Source: Geomonas oryzisoli (GTDB lineage: Bacteria; Desulfobacterota; Desulfuromonadia; Geobacterales; Geobacteraceae). From it: DNA of 64,000 nucleotides. The DNA lies in NCBI RefSeq assembly GCF_018986915.1, contig NZ_CP076723.1, positions 3,707,501 through 3,771,500 of the forward strand, given 5' to 3'. The translations under genes were made by a program, and so were the position numbers. The notes beneath the pieces are model-generated. The model was not told the DNA's origin. It did not search any database and worked only from the letters and a program-made list of their open reading frames with translations. Below are positions 904 to 39,802 of the stretch, piece after piece; position 1 is the first letter of the stretch; every line of letters starts with the position of its first letter.

Positions 904-1863
904 ATGGAACCGATTGAACTCACCTTCCCCTGCGACGCTGATCCCGAACGACTGGACAGCTTCATCGCCCGCAGCGTCCCCGAAATCACCCGATCCGCCG
1001 CGCTGAGGCTCATCGAGACCGGACAGGCCACGGTGAACGGCCAGCCACAAAAGCCCTCCCTCAAGCTCAAGGGTGGCGAAGCGGTCACGGTAACCATCCC
1101 GCCGCCGGCGCCGGCTCAACCGCAACCGGAGGAGATCCCGCTCGAGGTCCTGTACGAAGACAGCGACATCGTGGTGGTCAACAAGGGAGCCGGCATGGTG
1201 GTGCATCCCGGCGCCGGCAATGCCGACGGGACCCTCGTCAACGCGCTTCTTGCCCACTGCAAGGACCTCTCCGGCATCGGGGGTGAATTGCGGCCGGGCA
1301 TCGTGCACCGCATCGACAAGGACACCTCGGGAACCCTCGTTATCGCCAAGAGCGACCGGGCCCACAACGGCCTCGCCGATCAGTTCAAGGTGCACAGCAT
1401 CAAGCGGATCTACCTGGCGTTGGTGTACGGCAGCCCCAAGGAAGACCGCGGACGCATCGAGTCCGTGATCGGACGCCACCCCGTGGAGCGCAAGAAGATG
1501 TCGGGCAAGGCGCGGCACGGCAAGAACGCCATCACCCACTGGCGCGTCGAGGGGCGCTACCCCGGCGTGACGTTGGTGCGCCTGAGACTGGAGACGGGGC
1601 GCACGCACCAGATCAGGGTGCACCTCTCCGAGGCGGGACACCCGCTTTTGGCGGACGAAGTCTACGGCGGCGGCAGCCGGTTGGCCCAGTTGAAGGACCC
1701 GGTCCTCAAGCAGATGATCAAGGCGATGGGGCGCCAGGCGCTGCACGCCAAGACGCTCGGGTTCCTCCACCCCGTCACCGGAGAGTACCTGGAGTTCGAC
1801 ACGGAGCTGCCGCCGGACATGGCCGGCATCGTCGCCTATCTGGAAGAGAAAAACAGGGGCTAG
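904..1863 (+). CDS. rluD: RluD-type 23S rRNA pseudouridine synthase
   Basis: This 319-residue protein has the two-domain build of RluA-family pseudouridine synthases that modify large-subunit rRNA. An S4 RNA-binding domain covers about residues 15-75, and the catalytic domain carries the HRID motif with Asp138 as the expected nucleophile, followed by KDTSG. A GRTHQIRVH motif near residue 230 is also typical. A CAGGAG site lies upstream of the ATG. The last codons are AGG GGC TAG, and this sequence is the end of an intergenic repeat found twice more in the window, so the C-terminal Arg-Gly-stop may have come with the repeat. RluD versus RluC specificity is by resemblance only. Confidence 0.9.
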   Translation: MEPIELTFPCDADPERLDSFIARSVPEITRSAALRLIETGQATVNGQPQKPSLKLKGGEAVTVTIPPPAPAQPQPEEIPLEVLYEDSDIVVVNKGAGMVVHPGAGNADGTLVNALLAHCKDLSGIGGELRPGIVHRIDKDTSGTLVIAKSDRAHNGLADQFKVHSIKRIYLALVYGSPKEDRGRIESVIGRHPVERKKMSGKARHGKNAITHWRVEGRYPGVTLVRLRLETGRTHQIRVHLSEAGHPLLADEVYGGGSRLAQLKDPVLKQMIKAMGRQALHAKTLGFLHPVTGEYLEFDTELPPDMAGIVAYLEEKNRG

Positions 1864-1895
1864 GGACTAGGGACTAGGGGCTGGCGAAACCACCC
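1854..1895 (+). repeat. GGGGCTAGGGACTAG repeat, single copy overlapping the rluD stop codon
   Basis: The sequence from 1854 runs CAGGGGCTAGGGACTAGGG and continues with a second GGGACTAGGGGCTGGCGAAACC segment (1871-1892). It matches the repeat arms at 38496-38540 (same strand) and 38924-38967 (opposite strand). The TAG at 1861-1863 is the rluD stop. Confidence 0.8.
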
Positions 1896-37775: not shown

Positions 37776-38042
37776 ATGGAAACAGTGCTTTACGCAGCTG
37801 CACTCATGGTTGTGGCCACATTGATCAACATCCCCCTGGGGTACCAGAGACAGTCCTATCCGAAGTTCTCCTTCGGCTGGTACTTCTACGTCCACATCTC
37901 CATCCCCGCCATCATCTACTTCCGTATCAAGACCGGACTCGGCTGGGGATTCATCCCCTTCAGCATATCCAGCGCAGTGTTCGGGCAGATCATCGGCGGC
38001 AGGATGTACCGCAAGAGACACCCCGTTGACGAAGAGCAGTAA
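37776..38042 (+). CDS. Small unknown membrane protein (88 aa)
   Basis: The 88-residue protein has three hydrophobic segments (about residues 3-22, 33-48 and 57-76) and a basic, hydrophilic C-terminus, so it is probably an inner-membrane protein. An AGAGG site precedes the ATG. I do not recognise a family. It is transcribed divergently from the YedF/DUF3343 pair and reads into dciA without a gap. Confidence 0.8.
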   Translation: METVLYAAALMVVATLINIPLGYQRQSYPKFSFGWYFYVHISIPAIIYFRIKTGLGWGFIPFSISSAVFGQIIGGRMYRKRHPVDEEQ

Positions 38043-38052
38043 GCGTCCCAAG

Positions 38053-38505
38053 ATGAAGCGGCCGGCCCCGGTCACCGATCTTCTCACCGCCCTTTTGCGC
38101 GGCACCCCCGCCGAGTTGAGGCTCAAGGAGGGGCGCATCTGGGAAGTGTGGGACGAAGCCGTCGGCGACAAGATCGCCGCGCATGCCCAGCCCGCAGCCT
38201 TTCGCGAAGGCACCCTCACCCTCCACGTCGACAGTCCTCCCTGGCTGCAGCAACTCACCTACCTGAAGAAAGAGTTGATCACCAAGGTGAACGAAGCCCT
38301 GGACCAGGAACTCGTCAAAGAGATCCAGCTCAAGAGCGGCAAAGTCAGAAAGCCGGCCGCCACCAGCATCAAGAAACCCGTCCGGCGGGAACTGAGTGCG
38401 GAGGAGCAAGCTTGGGCCAAGGAGCAGGCCGAGTCTGCCGCGGACCCTGAACTGCGCGCCATCTTCGAGAGCCTGATCCGCAGAGACAAAGAACACAGGG
38501 GCTAG
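38053..38505 (+). CDS. dciA: DciA-like DUF721 protein
   Basis: The protein, about 150 residues from ATG 38053 (an in-frame TTG at 38026 would add nine), has the DUF721 core with RIWEVWDEAVGDKIAAHAQP and a VDSPPWLQQLTYLKKELI segment. In many bacteria DciA loads the replicative helicase in place of DnaC/DnaI. The last residues are His-Arg-Gly-stop, formed by CAC AGG GGC TAG, with the TAG at 38503-38505 inside the left arm of an inverted-repeat unit. Confidence 0.8.
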   Translation: MKRPAPVTDLLTALLRGTPAELRLKEGRIWEVWDEAVGDKIAAHAQPAAFREGTLTLHVDSPPWLQQLTYLKKELITKVNEALDQELVKEIQLKSGKVRKPAATSIKKPVRRELSAEEQAWAKEQAESAADPELRAIFESLIRRDKEHRG

Positions 38506-38967
38506 GGACTAGGGGCTGGGGGCTAGCAAAACCTGTCACCCTAACCTACGCCTTCGACTGCAGTGAACGTTGCAGCGAACGCAGCATCCTTCCCAGTTCG
38601 TCGCACTGCCGCAGAAGACCGTCGAGTATGACCGCCTCCAAATACCCCACCCTGGACCCTATCAGGAGCTGAGTTTCCAACTCAGCCAGAGAACCCAAGC
38701 TGATCGTCAGAAAATGAAGAAACTCTCTCCGCGAGCCGCGAGCGTGCCCCTCTGCGATGTTGGAGGGTACCGAGACTGCAGCCCTCTGTATCTGGCTGGT
38801 TAAACCAAAGACTTCAGATTTGGGAAACGAGCGTGTTATTTCATAAATTTGCCCAACCAGTTCCACCCCAACCTGCCACACCTTTAAGTCACGGTAGCTG
38901 CGAACATCCATGGTCCGCCTCCTGGTTTTGCCTTTACTAGCCCCTAGCCCCCAGTCCCTAGCCCCTG
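38496..38967. mobile_element. Putative 472-bp inverted-repeat unit carrying a four-helix-bundle gene
   Basis: The left arm (38496-38540) runs CAGGGGCTAGGGACTAGGGG, CTGGGGGCTAG and CAAAACC. The right arm (38924-38967) read on the minus strand runs CAGGGGCTAGGGACTGGGGG, CTAGGGGCTAG, then CAAAACC. Between them lies a single ORF (38546-38911). The outer ends supply the stop codons of dciA and of the trmN6-like gene. No transposase motif is present, so mobility would depend on another protein or on the ORF product. A solitary copy of the arm is at 1854-1895. Confidence 0.6.
38546..38911 (-). CDS. Four-helix-bundle protein of the S23/TIGR02436 type
   Basis: The 121-residue protein has the family features: MDVRSYRDLKVWQVGVELV at the start, FPKSEVFGLTSQIQRAAVSVPSNIAEG in two parts, and SLGSLAELETQL. 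Members are encoded by intervening sequences in 23S rRNA of some bacteria and as stand-alone genes; biochemical roles are uncertain, although the related Avd protein works with diversity-generating retroelements. The ATG follows AGGAGG at six bases. The gene is enclosed by inverted repeats, which is unusual. Confidence 0.88.
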   Translation of the reverse strand: MDVRSYRDLKVWQVGVELVGQIYEITRSFPKSEVFGLTSQIQRAAVSVPSNIAEGHARGSRREFLHFLTISLGSLAELETQLLIGSRVGYLEAVILDGLLRQCDELGRMLRSLQRSLQSKA

Positions 38968-39701
38968 CCTCTATAGATTCTCAGCTTTTCTTCCGAATAA
39001 CCGCTCCCCTCGCCTCTGACCATCAGGGGCGGTTCCACCTTCAGCTCTCCCGTTCTCCCCTTAGCCAACTCGATCATGAACATCCTGGCATCCATCGAGC
39101 TGTTGCCGTGCACCATGCGCAGTCTCAGCGGTGCGAGCTTTTGCACGGCAGCCTGCGCCATCAACTCCGCCAGGCGGCAGGTATGGTAGATGAGGCAGAT
39201 GCGACCGGAAGGTTTCACGAGGTACTTAGCCGCAGCCAGGAAATCGGCCAGCGTGGCACTGGTTTCGTGGCGGGCCTCGTCGCGTCCGGCGCGGGGGCTG
39301 ATCTTACCCGTACCGGGGCGGCGGTAGGGGGGATTGGAGACTACCAGGTCGAAGCTATCCACCGGGAAATGCGTCTTCAGCGACAGGACATCATCCTCGA
39401 CGATGCGTACCCGTTCCGTGAGGCCGTTCAGCGCGACGTTGCGGTTAGCGATGTCAGCCATCACCTGTTGGAACTCGATCGCCGTCACCGACGAGTTTTG
39501 TGCCAGGCGTGCCAGGAGCAGCGCGATCACCCCGCAGCCGGTGCCGAGGTCCGCGCAGGACTCGCCGTCGCGGACCCCGGAGAAGTCCGCCAAGAGCAGC
39601 GGGTCCACCGAGAACCGGTATCCATGTCGCGGCTGTATGATCCGCAAGTCATACCCGGACAACTCGTCCAAAGTTTCCAAATCAGAATTTAGGTTCTGCA
39701 T
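38958..39701 (-). CDS. TrmN6-like tRNA(1)(Val) adenine-37 N6-methyltransferase family protein
   Basis: The 247-residue protein is a Rossmann-fold methyltransferase with the NPPY motif (VVSNPPYRRPG), a SAM-binding DLGTGCGVIALLL segment and an N-terminal region DLRIIQPRHGYRFSVDPLLL typical of YfiC/TrmN6. It probably methylates adenine in RNA. The last residues are Arg-Gly-Arg-Gly-stop, from AGA GGC AGG GGC TAG, with the TAG in the right arm of the inverted-repeat unit. Confidence 0.88.
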   Translation of the reverse strand: MQNLNSDLETLDELSGYDLRIIQPRHGYRFSVDPLLLADFSGVRDGESCADLGTGCGVIALLLARLAQNSSVTAIEFQQVMADIANRNVALNGLTERVRIVEDDVLSLKTHFPVDSFDLVVSNPPYRRPGTGKISPRAGRDEARHETSATLADFLAAAKYLVKPSGRICLIYHTCRLAELMAQAAVQKLAPLRLRMVHGNSSMDARMFMIELAKGRTGELKVEPPLMVRGEGSGYSEEKLRIYRGRG

Positions 39702-39723: not shown

Positions 39724-39802
39724 CACGCAAAGCCGCAAAGGCGCAAAGACAGAAATCAAGGGCATCAGGCTTTCTTTGCGTCTTGGCGGCTTTGCGTGAC
39801 AC
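39724..39802. repeat. CGCAAAG palindromic repeat, paired arms
   Basis: The left arm CACGCAAAGCCGCAAAGG and the right arm CTTTGCGTCTTGGCGGCTTT plus GCGTGA are near-inverted copies around a 15-base spacer. It lies between the YfhO-type gene and the trmN6-like gene. Confidence 0.78.

Follow-up and report, generated by a model that had tools for sequence, protein, structure and literature searches.

The window, that is, the whole stretch of 64,000 nucleotides of the Geomonas oryzisoli genome that was analysed, contains a short unit composed of two facing repeat arrays and a single gene, located where the genes for DciA and a small methyltransferase converge (Table 1). The gene encodes a protein of 121 amino acids, which is a member of the S23 / 23S_rRNA_IVP family with 131.4 bits against PF05635 (cut-off 33.8) and 125.7 bits against TIGR02436 (cut-off 24). 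An earlier note, made from the letters of this DNA, had described a single S23/TIGR02436 ORF with a good ribosome-binding site and no transposase in the unit, and both readings are borne out: the AGGAGG motif lies 6 nt before the ATG, and no recognisable transposase is found in the window unit, S23 being its only ORF.

The two arms are 91% complementary over 35 ungapped nucleotides, with a spacing of 402 nt between them. The near-identical facing arms of about 44 bases that had been claimed are indeed inverted, but the greater length is reached only through a small indel and the stretch GCAAAACC, which is common to both arms just inside them. In their primary structure the arms are tandem heptads (GGGGCTA GGGACTA GGGGCTG GGGGCTA), i.e., a 7-bp repeat of the form CTRGGGR, and this pattern, with at most 3 mismatches allowed, gave 6 matches in the window against 0 in 100 shuffles. 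The same note had placed the unit exactly between convergent stop codons, which has to be corrected: the TAG stops of both neighbours (DciA, 38503–38505; methyltransferase, 38958–38960) fall inside the arms and are supplied by them, so that the unit reaches into the ends of both genes rather than being confined to the space that separates them. The note did not recognise the arms as heptad arrays, nor did it see how general such an architecture is among S23 genes, or the probable kinship with the intervening sequences (IVS) of 23S rRNA.

Table 1. Features of the S23 unit and related repeats in the window (positions are those of the window)
Feature	Position	Strand	Remarks
Left heptad array	38496–38530	+	Inward strand G-rich, CAGGGGCTAGGGACTAGGGGCTGGGGGCTAGCAAA; gives the TAG stop of DciA
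Right heptad array	38933–38967	-	Repeats the left arm in inverted orientation (35 nt, 91%); gives the methyltransferase TAG stop
S23 / 23S_rRNA_IVP four-helix-bundle gene, 121 aa	38546–38911	-	PF05635, TIGR02436, dN/dS
Ribosome-binding site AGGAGG	38918–38923	-	6 nt upstream of the S23 ATG; sequence reading
DciA (PF05258) gene, ends ..EHRG*	38026–38505	+	Stop codon in left arm
Small methyltransferase gene (MTS, PF05175), ends ..GRG*	38958–39701	-	Stop codon in right arm
Solo CTRGGGR array, same repeat family as the arms	1854–1886	+	3' end of a gene (..KNRG*), gives its stop codon

Since dN/dS of the window S23 is only 0.03–0.08 among same-site relatives, and 0.03–0.09 in most measurable S23 pairs (0.18 in one very close pair), S23 is under purifying selection as a protein. 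The transcript of the unit folds strongly (z -4.5), and its complementary termini form a stem around the S23 ORF. The stop codon given by the solo array parallels the stops that the arms supply to DciA and the methyltransferase. Supplying stops as a designed property of the arrays was considered and rejected, as a stop occurs on the inward strand of 37 of 77 heptads, where 32.4 (sd 3.6) would be expected, which is no enrichment. A further, gene-less inverted array pair of period 8 (CACGCAAAGCCGCAAAGGCGCAAAG) lies at 39725–39800 of the window and adjoins the methyltransferase gene; that methyltransferase has a GxxExxY gene as its neighbour in six relatives.

Distribution of the unit and its repeats

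Among the 19 genomes of the genus, the unit occupies the same site in three others (G002, G012 and G013), and a deleted relic with 21 codons of S23 is left there in G018; that is to say, five genus genomes hold the unit or a relic at one site. G014 carries an S23 of 65% identity with the same kind of arms elsewhere, flanked by ffh and a TusA-domain gene. The search for arms plus a four-helix ORF in related genomes returned a related unit at a different site, and presence at the first site varies among relatives; neither of the two refuting outcomes named in the note, a unit fixed at one locus or arms absent around similar genes elsewhere, holds, and the earlier description of a discrete element, whether a passenger mobilised in trans or one with a product that aids mobility, is upheld. 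In most other genus genomes the site between DciA and the methyltransferase is without S23 and holds other inverted repeats, which gives it the look of a place where elements have landed repeatedly. Among the relatives no clean empty counterpart was found for the window unit, the site being occupied by other repeats.

Matches to the CTRGGGR pattern are dispersed in 17 of the 19 genomes. Close opposite-strand array pairs, as read from the CTRGGGR and CGTTCAA pattern matches in the genus, are convergent in all 30 cases and divergent in none (p = 2e-9), and 20 of the 21 S23 genes lie between inverted arrays (E 1e-3). The array units of these S23 genes differ, including CTAGGGR, CGTTCAA, GTTCTAC, AGTTCAA and AGATAA. 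For CGTTCAA, 15–97 matches are present in genus genomes with the cognate S23 and 0–16 elsewhere; copy number is associated with the cognate S23 at p 1.7e-4, or 0.0015 if the pseudogene of the window's genome (G000) is counted as absent, while CTAGGGR shows a weaker trend (p 0.011), all these values being uncorrected for phylogeny. The pseudogene is a frameshifted CGTTCAA-type S23 (L016, G000:C1 3641000–3642300), and 90 CGTTCAA pattern matches remain in that genome. Exceptions to the trend are G009, G003 and G004, which carry many CTAGGGR arrays without the cognate S23. G009 has 79 CTAGGGR matches, the most in the genus, and no S23 was found there by a search with the window protein.

Array pairs without S23 have unrelated interiors. 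An origin of these pairs by deletion of S23 was rejected, as their interiors contain no S23 remnant beyond the repeats themselves. At one locus (L257, G002:C32:121250–123050), an array pair of period 9, AACAGGGAT, lies nested within a pair of CGTTCAA arrays, where terminator-like hairpins are also present. In addition, GxxExxY genes (TIGR04256; PF13366 PDDEXK_3, placed in PD-(D/E)XK by Pfam) are flanked on both sides by inverted tandem arrays, in most cases with a period of 8–10, at 28 of 29 genus loci (L093–L122); of random positions, 9 of 180 were so placed. This suggests that a second class exists in parallel, with the same architecture as S23 but a nuclease-like gene. The window's own genome has such loci at G000:C1 2738648, 3406727 and 4404317.

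The architecture extends far beyond the genus. The main S23 sample comprised 80 named loci of public genomes, the best 80 of 527 confirmed matches, which lean towards relatives of the query; 77 of them were testable for inverted repeats flanking the gene within 400 bp. Inverted short-period arrays surround S23 at 64 of the 77 loci, in many phyla, against 2 of 276 random positions on the same contigs, and arms were not seen at the other 13. The best arm period is 7 in 54 of these 64, and in a second sample, from the window's phylum, arms are present at 21 of 27 loci. The arms hold about 4.5 heptads each (about 4–5 copies of a repeat of about 7 bp), the units are about 465 bp long (about 420–560 bp overall), G exceeds C in 90 of 101 arms read inward, and the common arm pattern is AGGGANT. 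Neither phages (no S23 match in 50,697 records) nor, by a crude motif scan of the sampled loci, rRNA genes gave a convincing S23 locus. Multi-copy S23 in G232 (L233 and L234; G232:C1, 3063–3088 kb) was set aside as a tandem amplification, of no use for finding element ends; the S23 fragments there are amplified in tandem units of about 215 bp next to an apparent CRISPR array.

Over 77 non-redundant S23 proteins, protein identity correlates with heptad similarity (Mantel r 0.486, p <= 2e-4), and continues to do so after correction for the GC content of genomes and arms (r 0.48, p <= 3e-4). The gene and its repeat are shown to travel as one unit over deep time. This signal would also be expected from a passenger S23 inherited with its arms, and by itself is no proof of binding. 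Such a passenger, with the arrays acting as MITE-like ends that an unrelated transposase or nuclease moves in trans and S23 as cargo of some other use, seems unlikely to us. Its attraction is that S23 has no known catalytic motif, that array pairs without S23 are many, as are the CTAGGGR arrays in genomes without the cognate gene, and that co-inheritance alone could yield the Mantel correlation. However, the same kind of gene lies between arrays in many phyla and no transposase gene was seen inside any S23 unit, end sequences so diverse would require equally many enzymes acting in trans, and array number tends to track the cognate S23.

Clean insertions in cyanobacterial plasmids

Among conjugative plasmids of Nostocales, the unit is found in those of Trichormus variabilis and Scytonema (L250, L274) and is missing from those of Aulosira and Fremyella (L272, L273). 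The filled and empty backbones are 97–98% identical, and the insertion of about 420 bp has S23 as its only gene. The empty allele reads AAAAAGTAATTAACAAAT; in the filled allele, AAAAAGTAAT is followed by AAATCAGAATTCAG, the S23 gene, GAGTTCTTCTTTG and finally TAATTAACAAAT. On alignment the flanks share 5 bp, GTAAT, as the target duplication, which shrinks to 4 bp should the G be part of the element. A second insertion is common to pNsp_a of Nostoc ATCC 53789 and pC052_D of Nostoc C052 (L285, L290), with L286 and L289 as empty alleles (flanks 91–96% identical) and the duplication TTCT(A). A third is filled in L286 and empty in L289, where the duplication, AATG/TATG, is only approximate. Other pairs were discarded: in L246 and L248 the divergence is too great to fix the ends exactly, and the comparison of L283 with L287 is not clean.

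The elements of L250, L284 and L285 are 78–82% identical over 416–419 bp and sit at three unrelated sites, and beyond the element ends, exactly at the arrays, they cease to be similar. Members of the class insert cleanly, with S23 as their only gene and target duplications of 4–5 bp. The empty sites and target duplications that the earlier note had proposed to look for are present for the unit's relatives in plasmids; the window unit has no clean empty site. A duplication of 4–5 bp is generally not expected from a Y1 enzyme (RAYT/TnpA-REP of REP/REPIN). L275 holds a decayed copy of the element, and S23 units are shown to decay in place.

These insertions bear directly on whether the arrays are mobile at all, since they could be local hairpins (terminators or insulators) grown by slippage, with S23 persisting nearby for a structural reason. 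Consistent with this, arrays often sit directly after stop codons, they vary by whole heptads between close relatives (one arm differs by two heptads between L250 and L274), and the five genus genomes keep the unit or relic at one site. Against it stand the filled and empty sites with target duplications on the nearly identical plasmids, and the similar elements at unrelated sites that end exactly at arrays. We regard a non-mobile origin as hardly probable at all, and for the class it is already largely refuted.

Likeness to known elements

The closest known counterparts are the IVS of 23S rRNA, which, like the window unit, have the S23 ORF as their only gene, measure about 430 bp and possess stem-forming terminal inverted repeats. 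That of Coxiella burnetii carries an S23 ORF, terminal inverted repeats and three GACAGAT heptamers (PMC4990558), so that there, as in the window unit, heptamer repeats adjoin the ORF; rRNA insertions of CPR bacteria likewise encode 23S_rRNA_IVP (PMC11270868). Earlier authors suggested that the IVS ORF might be a mobility component (PMC4990558, PMC11270868). By location the window unit is not an IVS, since it is intergenic, between DciA and the methyltransferase, whereas the IVS sits in rRNA. Moreover, its arms consist plainly of tandem heptads whose repeat unit is specific to the lineage, and clean DNA insertions with duplications of 4–5 bp are shown for relatives. The IVS of 23S rRNA and the S23 heptad unit are probably of one kind.

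With MITEs and insertion sequences the class has in common the terminal inverted repeats (window unit), the short target duplications (plasmid relatives) and the gene-less derivatives. It differs in that the S23 unit is without a transposase, its ends are tandem short repeats that vary widely among lineages, and a four-helix protein is its only gene. The STRR-type heptameric repeats of Nostoc and Xanthomonas (PMC4692102) and the heptad stems in the P6b of the Nostoc trnL intron (PMC4476775) were both described without reference to S23 or mobile elements. Their period is the same, and GGGGAYT, GGGAATC and NNTGAGT fit AGGGANT (PMC4692102, PMC4476775); heptads of this type also form convergent inverted pairs, 70–75 in two Xanthomonas genomes (PMC4692102).

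A third comparison is with Avd (bAvd, PF22296) of diversity-generating retroelements (DGRs), which belongs to the same four-helix-bundle superfamily. The window S23 matches the bAvd profile weakly, at 25.8 bits, below the cut-off of 40, and on this profile comparison S23 is a distant relative of Avd. The window unit, unlike a DGR, has no reverse transcriptase, template repeat or variable gene. The unit might nevertheless be a retroelement: a reverse transcriptase supplied in trans would mobilise it by way of the hairpin RNA, and S23 would take the part that Avd plays in DGRs. In favour of this route are the distant kinship with Avd, the strong fold of the unit RNA and the position of S23 relatives in rRNA (PMC4990558). 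We consider it very unlikely: eight genus genomes with S23 units, each at least 99% complete (G000, the window's own, G004, G005, G006, G008, G010, G012 and G014), gave no RVT_1 match, which weakens this route; an earlier reverse transcriptase may since have been lost there, or the RVT_1 model may miss the family of a present one. Elsewhere in the genus, at G017:C147 27656–29102, a reverse transcriptase adjoins a bAvd-like gene; this is probably a diversity-generating retroelement, and its Avd has no inverted arrays.

Proposed role of the S23 protein

The nearest solved relative of S23 is XCC0516 (2gsc), and homology to it settles the fold of S23; this Xanthomonas protein is reported to form a pentamer in the crystal, as cited in PMC4990558. 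In 101 S23 proteins, P30, Q40, R43, E54, R58, G73 and E77 are invariant, and W12, S47, N51, A53 and S74 are 98–99% conserved, which would seem to exceed what a plain scaffold needs. A role of the S23 family in DNA mobility is likely. Our preferred reading, which we hold to be probable, is that the window unit belongs to a class of minimal, IVS-like mobile elements spread across bacteria, in which the S23 oligomer recognises the heptad ends of its own element.

We propose that the S23 oligomer binds the cognate heptads at both ends, perhaps with one subunit per repeat, and pairs the two ends of the element. It would then drive or recruit a staggered cut at the target, the cutter being either a host nuclease that is brought in or S23 itself, acting through the polar residues that are invariant in it. 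The same protein could also move S23-less arrays in trans. The S23-encoding 23S rRNA IVS would belong to these elements as well; rRNA would tolerate them since RNase III removes the strongly folded hairpin that their transcript forms. A more far-reaching possibility, which we put forward tentatively and with more doubt than belief, is that S23 itself is the recombinase: a four-helix protein of about 120 residues with a conserved Q-R-S-N-E-R-S-E constellation, which would form a ring on the tandem heptads and cut DNA. If this is true, it would be a kind of transposase not known so far, and S23 elements, the rRNA IVS included, would be autonomous and among the smallest mobile elements.

In the open-access literature, to which the search was confined, no paper joining S23 with inverted heptad arrays was found, and priority is not established. 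S23/TIGR02436 proteins are common in bacteria and had been without a known function. The family now gains a genomic definition, namely a gene between inverted heptad arrays, together with a testable role in recognising its own ends and exact insertion sites with target duplications. Three puzzles, i.e., the rRNA IVS, the heptameric repeats of cyanobacteria and Xanthomonas, and the dispersed intergenic hairpins, are brought into one frame, and the long-standing idea of the IVS ORF as a mobility gene becomes open to direct test.
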